Notes under the pieces: model-generated
What the model saw: the letters and a program-made list of their open reading frames with translations, nothing else
What the model was told of the DNA's origin: nothing
Database searches by the model: none
NCBI RefSeq assembly: GCF_020404405.1
Contig: NZ_JAIZDA010000003.1
Location: forward strand, 62,001-126,000
Reading direction: 5' to 3'
Length of the DNA: 64,000 nt
DNA from: Novosphingobium sp. FKTRR1
GTDB taxonomy: Bacteria; Pseudomonadota; Alphaproteobacteria; Sphingomonadales; Sphingomonadaceae
Program-made: the position numbers and the translations under genes
In this document: positions 4,723 through 33,700 of the stretch, in pieces
Numbering within the stretch: position 1 is the stretch's first letter
Layout of the letters: each line of letters starts with the position of its first letter

Positions 4723-5256
4723 TCAGCCCAGCTTGCGCAACGGCTCGGTGCCGTCCCAGTCTTTCGCGGCGTCCTTGATCATCTGGAAGATCGCATCGGC
4801 GCCGGTCATGTTCTGCAGCAGTTCGATCACCCCGCCCGGACCAGCGCCGGCGTCGACATAGATCACCGCGCCATCGGCCCCGACGGTGCCTTCGACCAGA
4901 ATCTCTGCGCCGACAGCGGCCACCGCGGCCCGTGCTTCGGCGATGGAATCGACGAAGATGCAGACATGGTGCAACTGGTCGGTGACCGCGTATTCGCCGG
5001 TATAGATCGACGGTTCACGGTTTTCCGGGCGGATCAGTTCGATCTGCACGTCGCCCCAATAGGCGATGGCGATGCTGAAGATCGCGCCGGTGGGCACGCC
5101 CTTGTACCTGGCATCGCCCAGTGCGACGTTCTCCATCAGGTAGAACGGGCCGACACCCATCGTTTGCGTCCAGTACGTCACCGCCGCGTCGAAATCCTGC
5201 GGCAGAAAGGCGAGCTGGCCGATGGGGCCAAGGTCTTTGATCGCTTTGACGGTCAC
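4723..5256 (-). CDS. VOC (glyoxalase/dioxygenase superfamily) protein
   Basis: A 177-residue protein with two beta-alpha-beta-beta-beta modules of the vicinal oxygen chelate fold. Visible segments are the opening I-G-Q-L-A-F-L-P-Q-D-F-D-A-A, the W-G-D-V-Q-I-E-L-I strand, L-H-H-V-C-I-F-V-D in the second module, and G-V-I-E-L-L-Q. The start is GTG, overlapping the E2 stop by 4 bp (GTGA), so it is translationally coupled to the 2-oxoacid dehydrogenase. Members include epimerases, lyases and ring-cleaving dioxygenases; the metal ligands are not conserved clearly enough to choose. A second and a third VOC gene lie at 34.5 and 42.9 kb. Confidence 0.75.
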   Translation of the reverse strand: MTVKAIKDLGPIGQLAFLPQDFDAAVTYWTQTMGVGPFYLMENVALGDARYKGVPTGAIFSIAIAYWGDVQIELIRPENREPSIYTGEYAVTDQLHHVCIFVDSIAEARAAVAAVGAEILVEGTVGADGAVIYVDAGAGPGGVIELLQNMTGADAIFQMIKDAAKDWDGTEPLRKLG

Positions 5257-6719
5257 TGGAACAGTCCTTCGGGCGCTTCGATCAGGCCCTTCAAGGTTTG
5301 CAGGAAGGTGGCGCCCGCCGCGCCGTCGATGGCGCGGTGGTCGACCGACAGGGTCAGTCCGATGCGGCTTTCGAAGGCGATGTCGCCATTATCACGTTCC
5401 ACCGCGACCTTGTTCACCCCGCCGACGGCAAGGATCGCGCCTTGTGGCGGGTTGATGATCGCGTCGAACTGCTCGATCCCGAACATGCCGAGGTTCGAGA
5501 CGCTGAAGGTGCCGCCATCCATGTCGTCGTAGCTCAGTTTGCCGGCCTGTGCCTTGTCGATCAGCGCGCGGGTGGTGCTGGCGATCTGGGCGATATGCAG
5601 GCGGTCGGCCTGCCGCACGATCGGCGTGACCAGTCCCTTGGGGCTGGCGACGGCGATGGCCACGTCAGCGTGGGGGAAGCTATGCACCGCATCGCCATGG
5701 ACCTGCACATTGACATCAGGATGCCGCACCAGTGCCAGCGCCACCGCCTTGACCAGATAGTCGTTGATCGAGGCCCCCTTGCCGCCAATAACTCCCCCAA
5801 GCACGATATTGGCGGTCTTGCGCAGCGCGATCAGTTCATCGACCCGTGCCGAGACGCGCAAGTAGAAGTGCGGGATGGTCTGCTTGGCCTCGGTCAGGCG
5901 GCGGGCCACGACCTTGCGCACTTTGTCGAAGGGCTGGACTACCGGATCGTTGGCTACTGGAACGAAGGGAGCGCCGAACACCACCGTACCCGCCTGGGCT
6001 GCGGGAGCGGGGACCAGCGCCAGCACGTCCTTCTTCGAAATGCGCCCGCGCGGTCCGGTGCCGGTCAAGCCGGTCAGGTCGATATCATGCAGCGCGGCCA
6101 GTCGCCGGGCCAGAGGCGAGGCGAAGATTGCCGCGATCTCGGCGGGCAGGGGCGCTGCACCCTTGTAGCTGGCAGCGCGGTCGGGCTGGAGCGCCTGAAA
6201 CACATCCTGATAGGTGATGCGACCGCCGCGTCCCGAGCCCGAGATCGGCTCGATATCGATGCCTTCGGCTTCGGCCAGCTTCAGCGCTTCGGGGCTGATC
6301 GGGCGGTTGGTGACGATCTTCTTCGGTGCGCGAGCAGGCGTTGCCGGTGCGGCCGGGGCGGCAGCCACTGGCGCAGCGGCAGGGGCTGGCGCCGAACCCG
6401 CCTTGGCCGCTACCGACGTTTCAGCCGGTTTGAACGCGGCGATGAAGGCATCGATTTCGGCATCGGTGGCGGCCGCTTCGGCAAATACCGCCAGCAGCGC
6501 ACCCACCGGATGCGCATCCTCGCCAGCGGGTACGAGCAGCCGCTTGAGCACGGCATCGTATTCCGCTTCGACCTCGTTGGTGATCTTGGCGGTTTCGATC
6601 AGGCACAGCGTTTGCCCACGAGTGAAGGCATCGCCTTCCTTGACCATCCATTCGGCGATGGTGCCCTCGGTCATTTCGATGCCCCACTTGGGCATGCAGA
6701 ACGGGCGGATATCGGCCAT
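5253..6719 (-). CDS. 2-oxoacid dehydrogenase E2 (dihydrolipoyl acyltransferase) with two E3-binding domains
   Basis: A 488-residue E2 component that transfers the acyl group from lipoate to CoA. It has a lipoyl domain (about 1-78; lipoylated Lys45 in E-T-A-K), an Ala/Pro linker, a first peripheral-subunit-binding domain (about 140-176, G-S-G-R-G-G-R-I), a second one (about 200-235, G-T-G-P-R-G-R-I), and a catalytic acyltransferase domain with His461 and Asp465 in H-R-A-I-D-G. One binding domain is usual, so the tandem is notable. The start is the ATG 13 bp after the E1beta stop. No E3 (lipoamide dehydrogenase) gene is in the window, so it must be borrowed. The complex is of acetoin/pyruvate dehydrogenase type; its substrate is unknown. 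Confidence 0.92.
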   Translation of the reverse strand: MADIRPFCMPKWGIEMTEGTIAEWMVKEGDAFTRGQTLCLIETAKITNEVEAEYDAVLKRLLVPAGEDAHPVGALLAVFAEAAATDAEIDAFIAAFKPAETSVAAKAGSAPAPAAAPVAAAPAAPATPARAPKKIVTNRPISPEALKLAEAEGIDIEPISGSGRGGRITYQDVFQALQPDRAASYKGAAPLPAEIAAIFASPLARRLAALHDIDLTGLTGTGPRGRISKKDVLALVPAPAAQAGTVVFGAPFVPVANDPVVQPFDKVRKVVARRLTEAKQTIPHFYLRVSARVDELIALRKTANIVLGGVIGGKGASINDYLVKAVALALVRHPDVNVQVHGDAVHSFPHADVAIAVASPKGLVTPIVRQADRLHIAQIASTTRALIDKAQAGKLSYDDMDGGTFSVSNLGMFGIEQFDAIINPPQGAILAVGGVNKVAVERDNGDIAFESRIGLTLSVDHRAIDGAAGATFLQTLKGLIEAPEGLFQ

Positions 6720-6732
6720 GGCGCGCAGTTCC

Positions 6733-7746
6733 TTAGCGGTAGGACAGGACTTTGCGCACCGCCGCTTCGATCTTGTCGATCGAGGGGAGGTACGCCGTCT
6801 CCAGTTCGCGCGCGAACGGGATCGGGGTGTGCGGCGGATTGACGCCGAGCGGCGGCGCCTTGAGGCTGGCAAAGGCCTTTTCCGAAACCAGCGCGCAGAT
6901 ATCGCTGGCAAGGCTGCAACGCGGCGGCGCTTCGTCGACCACGATGAGGCGACCGGTTACTTCGACAGAATCGAGGATCGCTTCCTCGTCCAGCGGGCTC
7001 GTGGTGCGCAAGTCGATCACGTCGCAGCCGATGCCTTCGGCCGCCAACCTGTCGGCCACCGCCTCGCAGAAACCGAGCAGCAACCCGGTCGAGACGATCG
7101 TCACGTCCTGCCCTGCGCGGCTGAGGCGGGCATGGCCGAACGGGATCATGAAGTCCGGGTCGTCGGGCACTTCGCCGCTGACACCGTAGAGCGCCTTGTG
7201 CTCAAGGAAGATAACCGGGTCATCGTCGCGGATGGCGGTGCGCAAAAGGCCCTTAACGTCGGCGGGCGTCGTCGGCATCACCACCTTGAGGCCGGGCATG
7301 CCGGTCAGGATCTGGTGGACCGCCTGGCTATGCTGGGCCGCCGCATTGTAGCCCGCGCCATAGGCCATGCGGATCACTGCCGGGCAGCGGGTCTTGCCGC
7401 CGAACATGTAGCGAAACTTGGCCAGCTGGTTCCAGATCTGGTCGAGCGATACGCCGATGAAGTCGGCGAACATCAGTTCGGCCACCGGCCGCTTGCCCGA
7501 CAGCGCCAGTCCTGCCGCAGCGCCGATGATGGCGCTTTCCGAGATCGGCGTGTCGATCACCCGGTCGGCGCCGAACTTCCCGAACAGGCCGGTCGAGGTC
7601 GACCAGATCCCGCCGATGGCTTCGGGGCCACCGGGGGTGCCCATGCCGCCGACCACGTCTTCACCCAGCACGACCACATTGGGGTCGCGCGCCATTTCTT
7701 CTGCGATCGTCGAGACGACGGCGTCGCGATACATCATCTTGGCCAT
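6733..7746 (-). CDS. 2-oxoacid dehydrogenase E1 beta subunit
   Basis: A 337-residue transketolase-like subunit pairing with the E1alpha encoded just upstream. Family features include the opening M-Y-R-D-A-V, the G-E-D-V-V-G-G segment, D-T-P-I-S-E-S near residue 60, and the C-terminal transketolase domain with V-V-D-E-A. Together alpha and beta decarboxylate a 2-oxoacid or an acyloin (as in acetoin dehydrogenase) with thiamine diphosphate and pass the acyl group to E2 lipoate. Spacing is 14 bp to E1alpha and 13 bp to E2, consistent with one operon. The acetoin-dehydrogenase-like family is the best match in size and order, but the catabolic context suggests a pathway-specific substrate. Confidence 0.92.
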   Translation of the reverse strand: MAKMMYRDAVVSTIAEEMARDPNVVVLGEDVVGGMGTPGGPEAIGGIWSTSTGLFGKFGADRVIDTPISESAIIGAAAGLALSGKRPVAELMFADFIGVSLDQIWNQLAKFRYMFGGKTRCPAVIRMAYGAGYNAAAQHSQAVHQILTGMPGLKVVMPTTPADVKGLLRTAIRDDDPVIFLEHKALYGVSGEVPDDPDFMIPFGHARLSRAGQDVTIVSTGLLLGFCEAVADRLAAEGIGCDVIDLRTTSPLDEEAILDSVEVTGRLIVVDEAPPRCSLASDICALVSEKAFASLKAPPLGVNPPHTPIPFARELETAYLPSIDKIEAAVRKVLSYR

Positions 7747-7760
7747 TGTTCGCTCCCGCC

Positions 7761-8735
7761 TCAGTACGAAATATAGACGTCGGTCAGGACGTCCTCGGCG
7801 GTTGGCCGGGCCGCCGCCTTGGCCTTGGCCGTGGCATTCTCGATCGCGGCCAGCACCTCGGCATCGACCGCATCGATATCCTCGTGGCTCAACAGCCCGG
7901 CACCGGTCACGCTGGCGCGGAACTTCTTGATGCAGTCACGCGTCTCGCGGATGCGATCGAGTTCGCCCGGACCGCGATAGCGCTGCGGATCGCCCTCGAA
8001 GTGGCCGAAGAAGCGCTCGGTGTCGAATTCCACCGCCGCCGGCCCGTTGCCCGGCACGCGGACATAATCGAGCACTTCGCGCATGGTTTCGAAAACCGAG
8101 AAGAAATCGGTGCCATCGCCGCGCCACACCTTCATGCCGAATGCTTCGGCGCGGCTGGCGATGTCCAGTTGCGTGCCGACCGCGTAATCGAACCCGGTGT
8201 GTTCGGAGTAGTGGTTGTTCTCGAACACGAAAATGCATGATGCCTTGGTCACCACCGCCATGTTCATCGCTTCGAACGTGGTGCCCTGGTTGCAGGCGCC
8301 ATCGCCCGAGAAGGTGATGGCGACGTGACCCTTGCCGTCGATCTTGCAGGCAATCCCTGCGCCGACCGCGATCGGTGCGCCCGCGCCGACGATGCCGTTG
8401 GCGCCCAGCATGCCCTGATCGAAGTCGGCAATATGCATCGAGCCGCCCTTGCCCTTGCACAGGCCTTCGCGGCTGCCCCAGATTTCGGCCATCATGCCAT
8501 CGACATCGCAGCCCTTGGCAAGGCAATGGCCGTGGCCGCGATGGGTCGAGACGATCTTGTCCTCGACCGACAGATGCTCGCACACCCCTACCGCGACAGC
8601 TTCCTGCCCGCAGTACAAGTGCGTGAACCCGGCGATCTCGCCGGTCTGGATATCGACGTGCAACCGTTCCTCGAACTCGCGGATCAGTTTCATCTGGCGA
8701 TAGGCGCGCAAGAGCGCCTCACGGCTCAACTGCAT
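7761..8735 (-). CDS. 2-oxoacid dehydrogenase E1 alpha subunit
   Basis: A 324-residue thiamine-diphosphate-binding subunit. The ThDP motif starts G-D-G-A-C-N-Q-G and ends in E-N-N-H-Y, and the phosphorylation-loop-like Y-R-G-P-G-E segment is present. An H-L-Y-x-G-Q-E-A-V motif near residue 40 is typical of acetoin/pyruvate dehydrogenase alpha chains. A purine-rich ribosome binding site (AAGGTGGGATGAAGG) precedes the ATG. It is the first of the three dehydrogenase genes, 37 bp after the acyl-CoA dehydrogenase stop. The enzyme acts in the cytoplasm as an alpha2beta2 heterotetramer. The substrate cannot be inferred beyond a 2-oxoacid or acyloin arising in the surrounding pathway. Confidence 0.92.
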   Translation of the reverse strand: MQLSREALLRAYRQMKLIREFEERLHVDIQTGEIAGFTHLYCGQEAVAVGVCEHLSVEDKIVSTHRGHGHCLAKGCDVDGMMAEIWGSREGLCKGKGGSMHIADFDQGMLGANGIVGAGAPIAVGAGIACKIDGKGHVAITFSGDGACNQGTTFEAMNMAVVTKASCIFVFENNHYSEHTGFDYAVGTQLDIASRAEAFGMKVWRGDGTDFFSVFETMREVLDYVRVPGNGPAAVEFDTERFFGHFEGDPQRYRGPGELDRIRETRDCIKKFRASVTGAGLLSHEDIDAVDAEVLAAIENATAKAKAAARPTAEDVLTDVYISY

Positions 8736-8772: not shown

Positions 8773-9987
8773 TCAAAGTCCCAGTACGGTCTTGGCGATG
8801 ATCGAGGACTGCACTTCGTTGGTGCCGCCAAAGATCGTCCACGCCCGACTGTTGAGGTAGCGCGCGGTGGCCACTTGTGCGGCGCGCGAATGGACCGGCG
8901 GTGGCGCGTTGTCGCCATAGAGCGGCCGCGCCGGATCAAGCTGCAACCCGGCGGTGCCCAGCGCGTCCACTGCCAGAAGGTCGATGTCCTGCCGCAAGTT
9001 CGAGGCGAGCAGCTTGGTCAGCGAGGTTTGCGGCCCCGGCGGGCGGCCTTTGGCGACATCGGCCAGAATTTTCAGTTCGATCATTTCCAGCGCCTGCACC
9101 GACAGCTTTGCCCGTGCCACGCGGCGCTTCCAGTCGGTATCGTCGGCCAGTCTGCCGCCGCGCCCGTCCGCTTCTTCGGCGGCCAGCAGTTCGACTTGTT
9201 CCAGATCGTAGCTGAGCTTGGGCGCGTGGCACGATCCGCCGCGCTCGTTTTCAAGCAGGAACTTTGCCAGTTTCCAGCCGTCGCCCTCCTCGGCCACGCG
9301 GTCGGCGACGGGTACGACCACGTCCTCAAGGAACACCTGATTGACTTCGTGATCGCCTGCCAGTGTCAGGATCGGGCGCACCGACACGCCGGGGGCCGCC
9401 ATGTCGATCAGCAGGAAGGTGATGCCCGCCTGCTTTTTCACCTCGGGATCGGTGCGCACCAGCGTGAACATGCGGTTGGCCCAGTGGGCATGCGTGGTCC
9501 AGATCTTCGAGCCGTTGACAACGTAGTGGCTGCCGTCGGCCGACAGCACCGCGCGCGTCTGCAAGCTGGCAAGGTCCGATCCGCTGCCCGGCTCGGAAAA
9601 GCCCTGACACCAATAATCCTCACCCGACAGGATGCGCGGCAGATAGCGCTGCTTCTGGTCGGGGGTGCCGAAGGTGTAGATCACCGGCGCGACCAGCTTC
9701 AGCCCCAGCACCGTCAGATTGGGGGCGCCGGCCAGCGCGCATTCCTTTTCGAAGATATAGCGCTGCACCGGGCTCCAGCCGGTGCCGCCAACTTCCTTGG
9801 GCCATTGATAGCCCAGCCAGCCGCGCGCGTTGAGCACCGCGTTCCAGTGCTGGCCGATATCGGGTTCGACGAACACCGTCGGGGACGCGGCGGCGCCGTC
9901 CTTGACCGCCTGCGGCAGGTTTTCGGCAAGGAACGCGCGCACTTCGTCGCGAAAGGCGATGTCCTGCGGGGAGAGGTCGATATCCAT
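8773..9987 (-). CDS. Acyl-CoA dehydrogenase (large-type subunit)
   Basis: A 404-residue FAD flavoprotein that introduces a 2,3-double bond into an acyl-CoA. Visible landmarks are the N-terminal helical domain (F-R-D-E-V-R-A-F-L), the FAD/substrate strand G-F-S-E-P-G-S-G-S-D-L-A near residue 125, and the C-terminal F-G-G-T-N-E-V-Q segment. It resembles the larger chain of the heteromeric acyl-CoA dehydrogenases used in steroid side-chain and terpene catabolism. The natural partner is probably the shorter, divergently transcribed homologue at 12.75 kb. It is separated from the thiolase-like gene by 12 bp. Electron transfer flavoprotein is not encoded here. Confidence 0.9.
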   Translation of the reverse strand: MDIDLSPQDIAFRDEVRAFLAENLPQAVKDGAAASPTVFVEPDIGQHWNAVLNARGWLGYQWPKEVGGTGWSPVQRYIFEKECALAGAPNLTVLGLKLVAPVIYTFGTPDQKQRYLPRILSGEDYWCQGFSEPGSGSDLASLQTRAVLSADGSHYVVNGSKIWTTHAHWANRMFTLVRTDPEVKKQAGITFLLIDMAAPGVSVRPILTLAGDHEVNQVFLEDVVVPVADRVAEEGDGWKLAKFLLENERGGSCHAPKLSYDLEQVELLAAEEADGRGGRLADDTDWKRRVARAKLSVQALEMIELKILADVAKGRPPGPQTSLTKLLASNLRQDIDLLAVDALGTAGLQLDPARPLYGDNAPPPVHSRAAQVATARYLNSRAWTIFGGTNEVQSSIIAKTVLGL

Positions 9988-9999
9988 GGCGTATGCTGC

Positions 10000-11151
10000 T
10001 TATCGTTCGAGGATGGTCACGGCTGAGACGCCGGGCGCGCCGTAGACGTGGCTGTAAGCGGTCCTGGGCGCACCGGGAACTTGGCGGCTGCCCCCGTCGC
10101 CGCGTAACTGGACCACGTTTTCATAGACTTGGCGCAAGCCGGACGCGCCGATGGGTTCGCCACAGGCAAGGCATCCGCCATCGGTGTTGACCGGCAGCGT
10201 GCCGCCGATCTCGGTGCGGCCTTCGGCCAGCCAGGCTTCCTGTTCGCCGTCGGCACAAAAGCCGTTTTCGGCCATGTGCATGATTTCGGCCCCGGCTTCG
10301 GTGTCCTGCAACTGCGCCAGCGCAATGTCCTCCGGCCCGATTCCGGCCATGCGGAATGCGTCGGCAGAGGCGATGCGCGTGGCCGTGGCGGTACCGCCGC
10401 CGATATCGATCGAAGGGGCGAACACTTCGAAGCTTTTGGTCGGGCGCGTGCGCATCGTCGCCGCCTTCAGCCGGACCAGCGGTTTGCCGAGTTCGCGCGC
10501 CTTCTTCTCGCTGGCCAGGATCAGCGCGACCCCGCCTTCGGCTGGTGAGCAGAACATGAACTTGCTGTAGGGGTCCGACACCAAGGCCCCGTTCAGGATA
10601 TCGTCCAGCGCAACAGGTTCGCGGCGCCACGCATGGGGGGCATGCACGGCGTTGCGGAACGCCTTTTCCGCCACGCGGCCAAGCGTGGTGCGGCTGATCC
10701 CGTGCAGGTGCATGTAGCGGGTGATCTTGGCCGCGAAGAATTGCGTGGTGATCATGAACCCGGCATCGCCGTACCAGTCGGGCAAGTTGTACTCGGCGGG
10801 CAGAGCGTTGAATGCGCCGCGCGGGTGTTTGTCGAACCCGACCGCAAGGCCGATGTCGAATTCGCCCGACTTGATCGCCATTTGCGCCGAAAACAGCGCC
10901 GATCCGCCCGCAGCGCAGCCATTGCGCACGTTGATGAACTGGACGCCGGTCAGCCCAAGCCGGTCGACCATCGTATCGGGATTGCCCGCAGCGTCCGAAC
11001 TGCCATAGGCGAACTGGATATCGGGCCAGGCGATCCCGGCGTCGCCCAGCGCCTGCTGGACGGCGAACACGCCTTGCTCAAGACCGGACAGCCCATCGGT
11101 ACGACCGAACGGGTGGATTCCTACGCCAACGATGCAGACGTCGCCGCTCAT
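10000..11151 (-). CDS. Thiolase-like / lipid-transfer-type acyl-CoA aldolase or thiolase
   Basis: A 383-residue thiolase-fold protein. The nucleophile region is N-G-C-A-A-G-G with Cys79. In the C-terminal motif the usual G-H-P is G-E-P (Glu332), so a catalytic His of classical thiolases is replaced. Together with the adjacent DUF35 gene, which overlaps by 4 bp, this resembles Ltp2-ChsH2 pairs, where a thiolase-fold aldolase and a DUF35 OB-fold protein cleave beta-hydroxyacyl-CoA side chains. A condensing or deacylating thiolase is an alternative. It is followed by the acyl-CoA dehydrogenase gene, consistent with consecutive side-chain shortening steps in the cytoplasm. Confidence 0.85.
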   Translation of the reverse strand: MSGDVCIVGVGIHPFGRTDGLSGLEQGVFAVQQALGDAGIAWPDIQFAYGSSDAAGNPDTMVDRLGLTGVQFINVRNGCAAGGSALFSAQMAIKSGEFDIGLAVGFDKHPRGAFNALPAEYNLPDWYGDAGFMITTQFFAAKITRYMHLHGISRTTLGRVAEKAFRNAVHAPHAWRREPVALDDILNGALVSDPYSKFMFCSPAEGGVALILASEKKARELGKPLVRLKAATMRTRPTKSFEVFAPSIDIGGGTATATRIASADAFRMAGIGPEDIALAQLQDTEAGAEIMHMAENGFCADGEQEAWLAEGRTEIGGTLPVNTDGGCLACGEPIGASGLRQVYENVVQLRGDGGSRQVPGAPRTAYSHVYGAPGVSAVTILER

Positions 11152-11552
11152 GCTGCCGCTCCTGTGGTTGCTGCGGGGCGGAAGGCGGGGATCTGCGCCG
11201 ATGCGGCGTTGTCGGGATCGAGCGGCACAGAAGTGAGTTCCAGCGCCATTCCGATGCTGATCTGGTCGAAGGCCACGTCGGTCAACCGCGCCTCGACGAT
11301 CACTTCGCCGGGCAGTTCGACATAGGCCACAGGCCAGGGGCGGAATGTGTCAGGCCCGGCATAAGGCGGGCTTTTGGGGCGATAGCGCTGGATCGTCCAA
11401 CTCCACAGCCTGCCGGTTCGCGACAGCGCGACGGGTTCGTAAGCTGCGCCGGGCGGGCAGGGGAACACGATGCGCCCGCTCGTCCGTTCGCGACCGCCGA
11501 TCAGACGTGGCGGCGCTTCATCGGTAAACAGCCCTTCGGCAATCGCGTGCAT
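11148..11552 (-). CDS. DUF35 OB-fold protein with degenerate zinc ribbon
   Basis: A 134-residue protein, first gene of the minus-strand P450 operon. The ATG at 11552 gives a normal DUF35 length; further upstream in-frame codons have no family similarity. The C-terminal OB fold is recognisable from L-S-R-T-G-R-L-W-S-W-T and P-V-A-Y-V-E-L-P. The preceding rubredoxin-like zinc ribbon normally has four Cys, but only one remains here (F-P-C-P-P). DUF35 partners bind acyl-CoA and activate thiolase-fold aldolases, and its stop overlaps the thiolase-like start by 4 bp, so the two probably form a complex. Candidate lux box B lies about 155 bp upstream. Confidence 0.85.
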   Translation of the reverse strand: MHAIAEGLFTDEAPPRLIGGRERTSGRIVFPCPPGAAYEPVALSRTGRLWSWTIQRYRPKSPPYAGPDTFRPWPVAYVELPGEVIVEARLTDVAFDQISIGMALELTSVPLDPDNAASAQIPAFRPAATTGAAA

Positions 11553-11707
11553 CTCGGCTCCCGTTTGCGGACATTCGAATTTGGATGTTTTCGAATCCCT
11601 TGCCTGCCCTTCAGGCCACAGCCGCGCCCGCTTGCCGACTCTGCAAAACGCTAGGGTTGCACGAATAATGCGCGAAAATGGCAGGAAACCGTCTGAAACG
11701 CGCACGC

Positions 11708-11727
11708 ACCTGTCCAATCGGGCAGGG
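11708..11727 (-). promoter_or_regulatory. Candidate lux box B, upstream of the DUF35-P450 operon
   Basis: ACCTGTCCAATCGGGCAGGG is an imperfect 20-bp palindrome with the CT-N12-AG core of lux boxes and a CCTGtCC/GGgCAGG pairing. It lies between the luxR stop and the start of the DUF35-to-P450 operon. The flanking 11553-11766 also has two TTCGAA palindromes 16 bp apart (574-579 and 590-595 of the 11-kb segment) that could bind another factor. Binding by the neighbouring LuxR is inferred from position and similarity to box A. Confidence 0.55.
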
Positions 11728-11766
11728 GTAGCCCCGCGCCGCCTAGCGCTGCCATGGCATGCATCG

Positions 11767-12582
11767 TCAGGTGTTGAGCGAGATGTAACCCAGTTGCGCT
11801 GCCTTGAACACGGTCTGGCTGCGGTTGACCGCGTTCAGCTTGGTTGAGGCGTTATGGATATGGAACCGCACCGTTGCGCGGCTGCGGCTCATGATCATGC
11901 TGATTTCCAGGTCGGTCTTGCCGATTGCCGCCCAGCGCAGGCACTCGACCTCACGCTTGGACAGGCGCGAGCCGGGCGGCAGCGCCTGCACCGAGCCCAT
12001 CGCATGGACATAGCTGGCGATGAACGTGCGCGCATAGATGCCAAAGGCATCGCCGTGCTGCAGGAAGGCTGCTTCCAGATCGGTGACCGTCGGGTCGAGC
12101 GGGTTGAAACTGACCGCGCCGATCTGCCCGAACGGCAGGTGCACGGGCACCACGATCGCGGCGCGTGTCATGGCGCGGTTGTCGAAATTGGTCAGGTCGA
12201 TGGCGGCCAGATAATGGTTGGGCTGGCGGGTGCGGAACCCTTGCGCATTGACCCAGAACGGCTCGCTTTCAAAACGGCACGCCGAAGTCAGCGGCGAATC
12301 GAGCGCGATCCGTGAATTGCGCCACCACACCTTTTCATCATTCCAGCCGAACACGTCACGCGCCAGAATGTTGCCATCGGCATCCACCGGGGTGCGCTTG
12401 TCGGCGATGTCGTGCGCCGGAGCGGCGCGCATGCCGAATGCCAGCGCCTGCTTGTGCAAGGCTTCTGCCGCGCGGCGAACGTCCGCCGGACAGCCGATTC
12501 GCACTTTGTCGATGGATTCGGCCGAAAGAGGGTTTGCATCCTGCACCTTCGGGTTCTCCAGCACATCCAGACCGTAAGCCAT
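11767..12582 (-). CDS. LuxR-family regulator with autoinducer-binding-like domain (no luxI nearby)
   Basis: A 271-residue transcription factor. Residues 1-200 resemble the autoinducer-binding domain, with W-W near 86-87, Asp95 in L-D-S-P and P-F-W ending at Trp110; Y and P positions are altered, so the ligand may not be a standard acyl-homoserine lactone. Residues 207-268 are a GerE/LuxR helix-turn-helix of the quorum-sensing type (L-S-K-R-E-V-E-C-L-R-W, then G-K-T, T-V-R-F-H, N-R-S-Q). The ATG at 12582 has a GGGAGG ribosome binding site; longer in-frame starts do not. It sits between the P450 operon and the divergent acyl-CoA dehydrogenase gene, and lux-box-like sites flank it. No luxI is in the window. 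Confidence 0.9.
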   Translation of the reverse strand: MAYGLDVLENPKVQDANPLSAESIDKVRIGCPADVRRAAEALHKQALAFGMRAAPAHDIADKRTPVDADGNILARDVFGWNDEKVWWRNSRIALDSPLTSACRFESEPFWVNAQGFRTRQPNHYLAAIDLTNFDNRAMTRAAIVVPVHLPFGQIGAVSFNPLDPTVTDLEAAFLQHGDAFGIYARTFIASYVHAMGSVQALPPGSRLSKREVECLRWAAIGKTDLEISMIMSRSRATVRFHIHNASTKLNAVNRSQTVFKAAQLGYISLNT

Positions 12583-12665
12583 AGTGGCCTCCCATGAAGT
12601 CCGGCATCTTTCGCGCGCCGTAACGTAAGACCGGACAATACCGGCAGTCGTGCCGGGAAACAATC

Positions 12666-12685
12666 ACCTGTATCTCTGTACAGCC
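12666..12685 (+). promoter_or_regulatory. Candidate lux box A in the luxR/acyl-CoA dehydrogenase divergent promoter
   Basis: ACCTGTATCTCTGTACAGCC matches the Vibrio fischeri lux box pattern ACCTGTA-N6-TACAGGT at 12 of the 14 arm positions. The core is a perfect CTGTA-N6-TACAG palindrome. It lies 67 bp before the acyl-CoA dehydrogenase start and 84 bp before the luxR start, so one site could serve both directions. This is the strongest of the lux-box-like elements in the window. Confidence 0.7.
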
Positions 12686-12751
12686 TAGTCTTTTGCGCAG
12701 CGTGGAGCCTGCCGCGACGGTGATAGGGATTTACGCCAAGGGAGAGCTTGC

Positions 12752-13858
12752 GTGAATTTCGACCTCACCGAGGATGAGGAACTGCTCAAGGCGCTGGCCG
12801 AGCGGTTCATCGATGACCGATACGATATTGACCGTCGCCGCGCCTATCTGGCGGCTGACGAGGGTTTTTCGCGCGAAAACTGGCTGCTGCTGGGTGAATT
12901 GGGATTGCTGGCGGCGCCTCTGGCCGAGGAATACGGCGGCCTCGGGATCGATGCCACGGCCGTTGCCACGGTTTTCGAGGCATTGGGACGCGGCCTCGTG
13001 GTCGAACCGCTGATCGAGGCGACGCTGGTCGCCGCGCGCCTGTTTGCCACCACTGCGCCTGCGGCACTGGCCGATTCGTGGCTGCCAGGCCTGCTCGATG
13101 GCAGCCGCCGTGTTGCGCTGGCGCATGCCGAAGCTGGCAGCAGGGGCGGCCATCTGTGGGTGCAGACCAGCGTCACCGGCAACGGCGATGAGGTTGTAAT
13201 CACCGGCCACAAGCCGCACGTCATTGCAGGTTTCGGGGCGGACGGGTTTGTCGTCAGCGCGCGCAGCACCGGCGCGCCGGGCGATCCGTCCGGGCTGGGC
13301 CTCTACTTCGTGAAAGCCGCTGCTCCGGGGCTGACGACGGCAAGTTGGCGGCTGGCCGATGGCTCGGTCGCGGCCGCGCTGACGCTCGATGCCGTGCCCG
13401 CAGTGGCGCTTGATGGCGGGTTTGGCGCGCTGACCGAGAACGAGGCGCTGGCCTCGCTCGCGCGTTCGGCCGAAGCGCTGGGCGTGATGCAGCGACTGTT
13501 CGACGATACGCTTGAATATCTGCGCACCCGCAAGCAGTTTGGCGCGGCACTCGGCACGTTTCAGGCGATCCAGCATCGCATGGCGGCGCAGTACGGTGCG
13601 CTCGAACAAGGCCGCGCCTTGCTGAACCTTGCCATCGTCAATCAGGGCAGTGCCGCGTTCGCCAAGGCGGTGCAGGGCCTGCGCGCCTTCGTCGCCCCTG
13701 CCAGCGTGGAACTGGGGCACGAGATGATCCAGTTCCACGGCGGGATGGGCGTAACTGACGAACTGCTGATCGGCCACGGCCACAAGCGCCTGCTGGTGCT
13801 GTCGCGCTGGCCAGAAGCACCCGAAGTGGCACTGGACCGCTTCGCCGGAGTGGTTTGA
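12752..13858 (+). CDS. Acyl-CoA dehydrogenase (short partner subunit)
   Basis: A 368-residue acyl-CoA dehydrogenase homologue with a GTG start preceded by AAGGGAGAG. The N-terminal helical domain (M-N-F-D-L-T-E-D-E), the middle beta domain and the C-terminal R-K-Q-F-G-x-x-L-G-T-F-Q-A-I-Q-H segment are visible, as is the terminal H-G-G-M-G-V-T-D-E. This shortened type, paired with a roughly 400-residue homologue, is typical of the alpha2beta2 acyl-CoA dehydrogenases of steroid and terpenoid side-chain catabolism, in which FAD sites form across the interface. The probable partner is encoded at 8.77-9.99 kb. It is divergent from luxR, with lux box A between, and ends at a strong terminator. Confidence 0.88.
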   Translation: MNFDLTEDEELLKALAERFIDDRYDIDRRRAYLAADEGFSRENWLLLGELGLLAAPLAEEYGGLGIDATAVATVFEALGRGLVVEPLIEATLVAARLFATTAPAALADSWLPGLLDGSRRVALAHAEAGSRGGHLWVQTSVTGNGDEVVITGHKPHVIAGFGADGFVVSARSTGAPGDPSGLGLYFVKAAAPGLTTASWRLADGSVAAALTLDAVPAVALDGGFGALTENEALASLARSAEALGVMQRLFDDTLEYLRTRKQFGAALGTFQAIQHRMAAQYGALEQGRALLNLAIVNQGSAAFAKAVQGLRAFVAPASVELGHEMIQFHGGMGVTDELLIGHGHKRLLVLSRWPEAPEVALDRFAGVV

Positions 13859-22121: not shown

Positions 22122-22141
22122 ACCTGTCCTATTCGATAGGG
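22122..22141. promoter_or_regulatory. Candidate lux box C, tetR/Rieske (2) divergent promoter
   Basis: ACCTGTCCTATTCGATAGGG has the ACCTGT left arm and the CT-N12-AG core, and shares ACCTGTCC with box B. Only half of the arms are symmetric (CCT-x-TC), so it is weaker than box A. It lies between the divergent Rieske alpha and tetR genes, where a TetR operator is also expected; the CCTAT/ATAGG inverted repeat inside it could serve that regulator instead. Confidence 0.4.
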
Positions 22142-22245
22142 GGGACTTCCGCGCCATCGTGCGCTGGTGGACGGAACAATCACCCTTTCGACCACTGGCC
22201 CTTTGAACAGGGGCAATTTTGTGCTGTCTTGACGATTGTGGGGGA

Positions 22246-28714: not shown

Positions 28715-28913
28715 AACGCTTCAGCAGCTGGTCGAATACTGCGCTCTTCCGACCGTTTTGCCAAGTCTGCCAGCATGATCATTGTTTAGCCAAAGTTCTG
28801 GCGCGCTCGATACAGACCTTGCATTGAAACGGGTTGTCGCTTGATTGTTGTCAGGCGCTCAGGCATCCTTGCGAACAGCGTTCGTCGGTCGGCGATGGCT
28901 GGGGGGAAGTCGG

Positions 28914-29138: not shown

Positions 29139-29953
29139 TGCGCCGATCACTGTCTATGGTGATTGCGGCCATGTTGCTGACCACCGGTTCGCTTACGCTT
29201 GAGGGTTGCGGACAGGCGCTAATGCCAGCGGCGGCACCTCCACCTCCACCTCCACCTCCGCCGCCACCTCCGCCGCCGCCGCCTCCTCCACCAATGCCCA
29301 TTCCCACGCCTTCACCAGTCGTGGCCGAGCCTATGGTCGAGGAAGTGGTGCAGGGCTATGTCCTATCGCCCGATGATACCTGGCCCAAGGATACGGCGGG
29401 ATACGGTGTGCCCATTTTCACCACGGTGCAGCAGGCGCGCGACTTTTGTCCGGCGTTCATCGATCACGTCCGCATCGTCGGGCCTTTGAGCGGTGCCATC
29501 AAGCTGCGCGTGACCGTAAGCGGCATTCCCACGCGGATCATCCCGTTCATCTGGCCGGTCCAGTCGTGGGGCCGGGGGGATCGGGTGGACTGCGGCACGC
29601 TGGTGGCGCGCTACAACTTCACCGCTGCGCGTGCCTTCTTCGCACAGGCGCAGCGCACCATCGTCCGGCTTGGTGGTCATCCCCCAGACAAGCTGGCGGG
29701 TGGTCCATTCATTCTGGCGCGACGACTGGACACCGACCGGATAACGGTGTTCGACCTTACGCGCATTCCCCAGATCGATCAGGCGCGCTGGATCGACATC
29801 GCGCTCGACGCCATGACGCGACAGCGCAAGGCAGCCGCACAAGTCGTTCGCCCGCCATGGCGCGACCAGATGCGCGCCTATGTGTTCAGGTCAGCGCCGA
29901 GCTGGAACCGGATCATCGCGATGCTCCTGCCCGCCTACAAGGCCAAAGGCTAG
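29135..29953 (+). CDS. Proline-rich putative lipoprotein
   Basis: A 272-residue protein. A signal sequence ends in a lipobox-like L-E-G-C (Cys25), so it is probably anchored in the envelope. A run of 19 consecutive Pro (residues 35-53) then acts as a rigid spacer, followed by a compact domain of about 200 residues with Cys in F-C-P-A-F and D-C-G-T-L that could form a disulfide, and Arg/Trp-rich motifs (R-P-P-W-R-D-Q). The function is unrecognised. The Pro tract may let the domain reach across the periplasm or peptidoglycan. It overlaps the upstream small membrane-protein gene by 4 bp. Confidence 0.65.
   Translation: MMRRSLSMVIAAMLLTTGSLTLEGCGQALMPAAAPPPPPPPPPPPPPPPPPPPMPIPTPSPVVAEPMVEEVVQGYVLSPDDTWPKDTAGYGVPIFTTVQQARDFCPAFIDHVRIVGPLSGAIKLRVTVSGIPTRIIPFIWPVQSWGRGDRVDCGTLVARYNFTAARAFFAQAQRTIVRLGGHPPDKLAGGPFILARRLDTDRITVFDLTRIPQIDQARWIDIALDAMTRQRKAAAQVVRPPWRDQMRAYVFRSAPSWNRIIAMLLPAYKAKG
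29237..29293 (+). repeat. (CCACCT/CCG)-rich microsatellite encoding polyproline
   Basis: A 57-bp tract of 19 Pro codons, beginning with four CCT-CCA hexamer repeats and then CCG-rich units. Slippage in whole hexamers would change only the length of the Pro spacer without a frameshift, so the tract may vary between strains. Confidence 0.8.
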
Positions 29954-32744: not shown

Positions 32745-33548
32745 TCAACCGCTGGCGGCGCCGATGGCGGCGGCCATTTCCTCTCGTGTGGGGTTGCGGC
32801 GCAACGTCAGCCCGCCGTTCACCTGCAGGTTTTCGCCGGTCATGAAGCATTCGTCACTTGCAAGGAACACGGCGGCGGCGGCGATGTCATCGGACGTGCC
32901 CCATCGGCCAAGCGGATAGGAAGCGCGGAAGCTTTCAAACAGGCCGGGCACTTTCTTGGCTTCCTCGTTCATCGGGGTGTCGGTCAGGCCGGGCGAGATC
33001 GAGTTGGCGCGGATGCCCTCAACGCCGAATTCGTGTGCGATGCAGCGGATGACGTGGTCGGTTCCCGCTTTGGTGCCCATATAGGCCGCGTGGTCGTTGA
33101 GCATGATCGTGGCGGTGGCCGAACTGATCGTGATGATCGACCCGCCGCGCCCGCCTGCCGACCGCGCCATCTTGCGGATCATCGCCTGAAAGAACTGGTA
33201 GGGGCCGATGAACTGCAACGCGACCATCGCTTCCAGATCGGCGCGGCTGGTGTCGAGGAACGGCTGCAGCAGTCCCCAGCCGGTGGCATTGATGGCGATG
33301 TCGATCCCGCCGAGTGCTGTGGCGGCAGTATCGGCCAGTGCGGCCACGCTCGCTTCGTCGGTGAGGTCGCAGGCTGCCCAAAGACTGCCGGTTTCGGCGG
33401 CAAAGGCTTCCAGCACATCGGCCTTGCGACCTGAAACCAGCACCGTGGCGCCCTCGGCCTGAAAACGCCGGGCGATCACCTGACCCATGTTGCCGGGGCT
33501 GCTTGCGCCCATGATCAGGGCCGTTTTGCCTGCCAGACGTCCGGTCAT
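32745..33548 (-). CDS. SDR-family enzyme (6), atypical cofactor loop
   Basis: A 267-residue SDR. The first loop reads M-G-A-S-S-P-G-N-M-G-Q rather than T-G-x3-G-x-G, a form seen in enoyl-reductase-like SDRs. The N-N-A-G position is I-N-A-T-G-W-G. The S-S-A-T-A Ser and Y-M-G-T-K are intact, with V-N-G-G at the C-terminus. A GGGAGAG ribosome binding site precedes the ATG. It is divergent from the SDR/VOC operon at 33.7 kb with a weak lux-box-like site between. It may reduce an enoyl or keto group rather than oxidise an alcohol. Confidence 0.88.
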   Translation of the reverse strand: MTGRLAGKTALIMGASSPGNMGQVIARRFQAEGATVLVSGRKADVLEAFAAETGSLWAACDLTDEASVAALADTAATALGGIDIAINATGWGLLQPFLDTSRADLEAMVALQFIGPYQFFQAMIRKMARSAGGRGGSIITISSATATIMLNDHAAYMGTKAGTDHVIRCIAHEFGVEGIRANSISPGLTDTPMNEEAKKVPGLFESFRASYPLGRWGTSDDIAAAAVFLASDECFMTGENLQVNGGLTLRRNPTREEMAAAIGAASG

Positions 33549-33603: not shown

Positions 33604-33623
33604 TCCTGTTCAAAAGGGTAGTG
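33604..33623. promoter_or_regulatory. Weak lux-box-like element G
   Basis: TCCTGTTCAAAAGGGTAGTG keeps CCTGT on the left and the CT-N12-AG spacing but has poor dyad symmetry. It lies in the divergent promoter between SDR (6) and SDR (7). It is listed for comparison with boxes A-F and may be coincidental. Confidence 0.25.
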
Positions 33624-33700
33624 CCCGCGCAAGCCGGGGCAGGGCAAGGTCGCAACAAAGGGTCGGTGCGATCACCGGTCGGGATCGAGGAGGTTGAAAC

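Follow-up and report, generated by a model that had tools for sequence, protein, structure and literature searches.

A divergent LuxR-family regulator of sphingomonads and a conserved candidate operator at its acyl-CoA oxidation gene cluster

The window, i.e., the whole 64,000-nucleotide stretch of Novosphingobium sp. FKTRR1 DNA that was analysed, contains a luxR gene located between two groups of catabolic genes (Table 1). On the minus strand, luxR extends from an ATG at 12582 to its end at 11767, while a longer version in the ORF list begins at an upstream TTG; the gap at 12583-12751 separates it from ACD1, and the DUF35 operon lies on its other side. Judging from database matches, a single heterotetrameric dehydrogenase seems to be encoded by the two acyl-CoA dehydrogenase genes, ACD1 resembling its small subunit and ACD2 its large one. 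The best NCBIfam models are pimD_small for ACD1 and pimC_large for ACD2, both below cut-off, with PDB matches to 6wy8_A and 4x28_D for the former and to 4x28_A and 6wy8_B for the latter. Each gene product best matches a different subunit of the ChsE/FadE-type and PimC/PimD enzymes (4x28, 6wy8), which identifies complementary subunit genes of a ChsE/PimCD-type heterotetramer, as a type and not as an identity. Unlike in those systems, the subunit genes here belong to divergent units with the regulator between them. The thiolase has PDB matches to benzoylsuccinyl-CoA thiolase (7pxp) and SCP2-thiolase (6hsj), and together with the DUF35 protein it would have the layout of a side-chain-cleaving aldolase/thiolase pair. 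The nearest match of the P450 is N. aromaticivorans CYP101C1, for which ionone is a reported substrate (PMC9655578).

Relatives of LuxR were sought by protein search (E<=1e-30) in 398 genomes of the family, about a third of which (123) were positive. For locus comparisons we used 80 loci from named genomes, mostly Novosphingobium but also Sphingomonas, Sphingobium, Croceicoccus and others. Linkage of LuxR to the catabolic operons is conserved in this set, luxR being linked to ACD1 at 72, to DUF35 at 62 and to the thiolase gene at 61 of the 80 loci, and the order ACD1 / LuxR / DUF35 - thiolase - ACD2 - E1alpha - E1beta is kept across relatives. Elsewhere in the window, at 29160-29300, the beginning of an ORF encodes a signal-like segment and then a long run of prolines.

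Table 1. Genes, predicted promoter elements and candidate regulatory sites discussed in the text (window coordinates).
Feature	Position	Strand	Basis or remark
LuxR-family regulator, 271 aa	11767-12582	-	GerE HTH and divergent N-terminal domain of autoinducer-binding fold
ACD1, acyl-CoA dehydrogenase, small-subunit-like	12752-13858	+	GTG start at 12752; divergent from luxR
DUF35 / ChsH2-like OB-fold protein	11148-11552	-	PF01796, 1.3e-16; first gene of its operon, ATG at 11552
SCP2-type thiolase/aldolase, DUF35 partner	10000-11151	-	Pfam thiolase C-terminal domain
ACD2, acyl-CoA dehydrogenase, large-subunit-like	8773-9987	-	NCBIfam and PDB matches
2-oxoacid dehydrogenase E1alpha	7761-8735	-	Pfam
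2-oxoacid dehydrogenase E1beta	6733-7746	-	Pfam
2-oxoacid dehydrogenase E2	about 5253-6719	-	from its ORF
Glyoxalase-like protein	4723-5256	-	Pfam; toward 3' end of DUF35 operon
CYP101C1-like P450	3469-4689	-	Pfam; PDB 3oft, 652 bits; 3' end of DUF35 operon
SDR oxidoreductase, likely third target	32745-33548	-	Pfam adh_short_C2; conserved candidate operator upstream
Candidate ACD1 operator, CAGCCTAGTCTTTTGCGCAGCG	12681-12702	+	PWM 25.2; 69/72 relatives
Candidate DUF35-operon operator, AACCCTAGCGTTTTGCAGAGTC	11637-11658	-	PWM 31.8; 59/62 relatives
Weaker candidate operator before SDR gene, GGCACTACCCTTTTGAACAGGA	33604-33625	-	TGATAG at 33585-33580
Predicted extended -10 of ACD1 promoter, TGATAGGGA	12721-12729	+	TGnTA spacing in relatives
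Predicted luxR promoter	12635-12663	-	TTGTTT (12663-12658), 17 bp, TATTGT (12640-12635); read from sequence
Lux-like box 1	12666-12685	+	12/14; overlaps left edge of operator; non-conserved
Lux-like box 2	11708-11727	+	10/14; non-conserved

A conserved element, CCTARCnTTTTGnnnAG when read toward the target gene, is present on both sides of LuxR. Using a PWM trained on the relatives alone, with the window excluded, we detected one site before ACD1 and one before DUF35, the next-best score in the 64 kb being 13.0. Of the relatives' promoters, 69 of 72 for ACD1 and 59 of 62 for DUF35 carry the operator at a score that 10 of 7200 shuffles reached. In 17 close relatives, positions 12684-12700, beside lux-like box 1, are 91% identical and the flanks about 30%, and the DUF35-side operator occurs as an identical 20-mer in a relative with 90% LuxR identity. 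Its symmetry is limited to CT-N12-AG, with no obvious palindrome; such a non-palindromic operator is unusual for a LuxR dimer and counts against the explanation that we favour. Pattern searches of the 4.98-Mb genome gave six matches with at most one mismatch, four of them in the window; the two others (contigs C7 and C26) are both inside ORFs, as expected of chance. In N. subterraneum (L045, 14281-14336) and N. taihuense (L046, 14262-14334), the operator before DUF35 is repeated in tandem with a 17-bp period, in three and four copies respectively. A conserved CTGGCAAAAGG, absent from the window, is found immediately upstream of the DUF35 operator at loci L041-L053 and is possibly a second, inverted half-operator.

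Beyond the two flanking operons, the SDR gene is a likely third target on the strength of its upstream sequence. The site there is one of the six genome-wide matches with at most one mismatch and has TGATAG at the usual spacing from it, and in relatives the pattern is found in 13 of 20 SDR promoters, 49-64 bp from the start codon, versus 1 of 4000 shuffles; the seven promoters without it count against our explanation. The match at 28749, downstream of the CoA ligase gene and with no suitable -10, was rejected as a target, and a common operator upstream of that ligase gene (acs) was unconvincing in relatives. The sequence at 22191-22212 (ACCACTGGCCCTTTGAACAGGG, score 13.0) is similar to the operator of the SDR type and faces the TetR gene; no extended -10 (TGnTA) was found at the usual spacing from it.

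Of the 69 ACD1 promoters that carry the operator, 63 have an extended -10 (TGnTA) beginning 20-21 nt past it. This spacing would put the centre of the operator near -43 relative to the predicted start, overlapping the -35, which is the usual place of an activator. The same site is near -63 of the oppositely facing predicted luxR promoter, whose -35 and -10 are respectively 76% and 44% identical in close relatives and unconserved in more distant ones. The -10 of the DUF35 promoter is poor in the window, which also counts against our explanation. On inspection, the motif was judged to be neither a sigma-54 nor an ECF promoter: GG is missing at -24 and the -10 is sigma-70-like.

Several results point to LuxR as the operator binder without proving it. 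The operator stays before DUF35 even when inserts of 2.5-6 kb separate luxR, and at two loci where LuxR is directly beside E1alpha (L054, L067) it precedes E1alpha. In one genome (G037; loci L144 and L145), LuxR is relocated 23 kb away, beside CoA ligase and SDR genes; ACD1 and DUF35 retain the operator there, and the LuxR recognition helix still reads RSRATVRFH. This rearrangement constitutes a natural test of trans action. The loss of adjacency in this genome can also be taken to mean that the motif, which tracks the target genes and lies directly upstream of the expected -35, belongs to the core promoter or serves a different regulator, LuxR being a mere neighbour. We consider this rather unlikely. 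A general promoter element would recur, whereas six near-matches exist in 4.98 Mb, and the motif sits 21 nt upstream of the extended -10, not at -35 spacing. It is also associated with LuxR-bearing genomes: among the 398 genomes, the strict motif is present in 13 of the 24 with a LuxR at least 70% identical versus 8 of the 374 without (Fisher 5e-13), an association that partly reflects the same loci having been used to define the motif. In genomes lacking a close LuxR, the strict matches are mostly inside ORFs. As for another binder, no other regulator was common to the loci among the window genes compared, tetR for instance being found at 3 of 80. Moreover, the motif differs in clades with an altered LuxR recognition helix. 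Such diverged clades (e.g., RSHATIRYHIHRAG; helix RSHATIRYH or similar) are without the strict motif, and de novo sampling before their homologous operons gave CCTARCATTTTS or CCTAGCCGTTTTGGCAG. Of the de novo motifs obtained for clade B promoters, the majority proved to be coding sequence, and only those of the P450 operon and DUF35 were operator-like.

Because the shared operator is conserved before both operons in almost all relatives, LuxR very probably regulates both of its flanks. An initial, sequence-only reading of this DNA had placed the acyl-CoA operons and the P450 under direct LuxR control. The regulon idea was largely right, given the shared operator, and the P450 is weakened as a core target. 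Its CYP101C-like homologs in relatives are elsewhere in the genome or absent, unlinked to the cluster, so the P450 should not define the pathway; no operator was found before P450 homologs in relatives. On these comparisons, the P450 appears peripheral to the regulon.

LuxR could bind the motif and repress, the pathway substrate then releasing it. LuxR-type repressors exist, one having been reported in Comamonas testosteroni (cited in PMC8700777). At the present locus this mode of action is quite unlikely, as the site is upstream of the -35/-10, where activators typically bind, and the -35 is poor.

The sequence-only reading had LuxR act through two lux-like boxes flanking its gene, box 1 (ACCTGTATCTCTGTACAGCC) in the gap before ACD1 and box 2 (ACCTGTCCAATCGGGCAGGG) before DUF35, and both were recovered exactly as described. 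LuxR proteins often bind lux-type boxes, and each of these lies in a fitting gap. With 12 of 14 arm positions matched, a score not reached once when the gap that holds it was Markov-shuffled 4000 times, box 1 is individually unusual, though chosen post hoc; shuffling the second gap yielded the 10/14 of box 2 in 0.9% of cases. Over the window, matches of at least 10/14 number 12 versus 5 expected, many in coding DNA, and a consensus scan allowing up to three mismatches gave 23 versus 12 expected, mostly in coding DNA. No relative shares the boxes. None of the ACD/LuxR gaps of 72 relatives contains a lux box of at least 11/14 (two reach 10/14), and 6/14 is the best in the gap of one relative whose LuxR shares 90% identity. 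In 17 relatives with LuxR at least 85% identical, arm 1 of box 1 is 30% identical to the window and the spacer 31%, despite an HTH that is nearly invariant among close relatives. The two boxes are also unlike each other in sequence, and box 2, 155 bp before the DUF35 ATG (11552), would be near -113 of the predicted start. Because they are not conserved among relatives (72 gaps; 17 close relatives), both boxes were rejected as the family operator, and control of the two operons through them is very improbable. Least probable of all is that they are recent strain-specific sites adding quorum input from the two AHL-type LuxRs of this genome: two luxI/luxR pairs exist and box 1 is statistically unusual, yet no match above 10/14 was found in the 3-3.5 kb luxI loci and relatives lack the boxes. 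A third candidate lux box, ACCTGTCCTATTCGATAGGG at 22122-22141, was rejected; it contains CCTAT-N3-ATAGG, is flanked by a Rieske oxygenase gene and a divergently oriented TetR gene, and is probably the TetR operator.

The LuxR protein itself belongs to the family by its GerE HTH (PF00196, 52.4 bits versus a cut-off of 23.5; 4e-14), while the autoinducer-binding domain PF03472 remains below cut-off (17.1 bits versus 23; E 0.0042). In the structure model, whose HTH part has low confidence (about 60), the N-terminal domain nevertheless has the autoinducer-binding fold, with matches to LasR, RhlR and QscR at Z 11-13.5 (LasR LBD, Z 13.5 over 151 residues). LuxR shares with TraR, LasR, QscR, SdiA and RhlR this fold, the two-domain architecture, the GerE HTH and the equivalents of Trp57, Pro71 and Trp85 (TraR numbering). 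Unlike the quorum LuxRs, it lacks the full conserved AHL pocket (Trp57/Tyr61/Asp70/Pro71/Trp85): the Asp70 position is Ser96, invariant in every ortholog aligned, and the Tyr61 region is shortened by three residues. It further differs from them by its sub-cut-off PF03472 score, by a conserved operator that is not a lux box and by having no adjoining luxI. The sequence-only reading was correct in noting altered pocket residues and no luxI in the window, and the full-genome search that it proposed revealed two luxI genes, one on contig C35 and one on C57, both accompanied by a luxR of their own. Canonical AHL binding by such a pocket seems unlikely; the preference for a pathway compound over a cell-density signal is upheld to the extent that the pocket changes disfavour canonical AHL binding, and a pathway metabolite would be the more likely inducer.

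The two genomic luxR-luxI pairs (L001 on C35; L002 on C57) are each followed by a phytanoyl-CoA-dioxygenase-like gene, an arrangement with phyH previously reported for Novosphingobium pairs of the NovR/NovI type (PMC3704786, PMC4288048). The regulator described here is from the same bacterial family and 22-26% identical to them. One of these surveys applied a PF03472 filter of E<1e-5 (PMC4288048), which would miss it. By description, this LuxR can be likened to TeiR/TesR of C. testosteroni, a LuxR-type activator of testosterone catabolism (PMC6895838, PMC8700777): both are LuxR-family proteins linked to catabolic genes, those of TeiR/TesR reportedly serving a cyclic hydrophobic compound, and TeiR/TesR is not described as a quorum regulator, but lineage and targets are different. 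Closer in lineage, the LuxR of the pdc cluster (EGO55_13855 of Caenibius tardaugens, Saro_3594 of N. aromaticivorans) is a progesterone-induced, proposed activator (PMC12239570). This protein, likewise compared by description, is a sphingomonad LuxR-family regulator adjoining catabolic genes, with Baeyer-Villiger and luciferase-like monooxygenases as neighbours, unlike the present locus. No description of the present LuxR group or of its motif was found in the literature searched, the coverage of which is incomplete.

Taken together, we hold it probable that this protein is a LuxR-family "solo"-type, metabolite-sensing activator of a sphingomonad acyl-CoA/ring-oxidation cluster, acting via CCTARCnTTTTGnnnAG. 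The operator, its conservation and spacing, the fold, the pocket changes and the synteny are supported by comparative sequence analysis, and we infer LuxR binding, activation, subunit coupling and ligand class. LuxR would bind the motif, the centre of which lies some 43 bp before the predicted start, and would recruit RNA polymerase to promoters with an extended -10 and a poor -35. Three units would be targeted, namely ACD1, the DUF35-thiolase-ACD2-2-oxoacid dehydrogenase-glyoxalase(-P450) operon and the SDR gene, the inducer most likely being a metabolite of the pathway rather than an AHL. The divergent gap has a single operator, which would serve ACD1 and could act on luxR as well. ACD1 and ACD2 seem to be subunits of one heterotetramer whose genes are read in opposite directions, so that sharing an operator would keep the two subunits in step.

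More tentatively, and with somewhat less than an even chance of being right as a whole, the locus may exemplify a group of LuxR proteins that spans the lineage, retains the AHL-receptor fold but has changed both its ligand and its DNA code, and governs an acyl-CoA/ring-oxidation supercluster and ties together its dehydrogenase subunits. The replacement of Asp70 by Ser and a non-lux operator whose right half changes with the recognition helix would be the marks of this changed code, and the group would be largely invisible to surveys requiring PF03472. An eye-catching but non-conserved lux box is replaced by a testable operator and regulon, for a LuxR that is widespread in sphingomonads. The group may offer a clean case of an AHL-receptor fold repurposed for metabolite sensing, with operator and recognition helix changing together, and the operator sequences and three promoters would provide a handle for finding the substrate of a widespread catabolic cluster.
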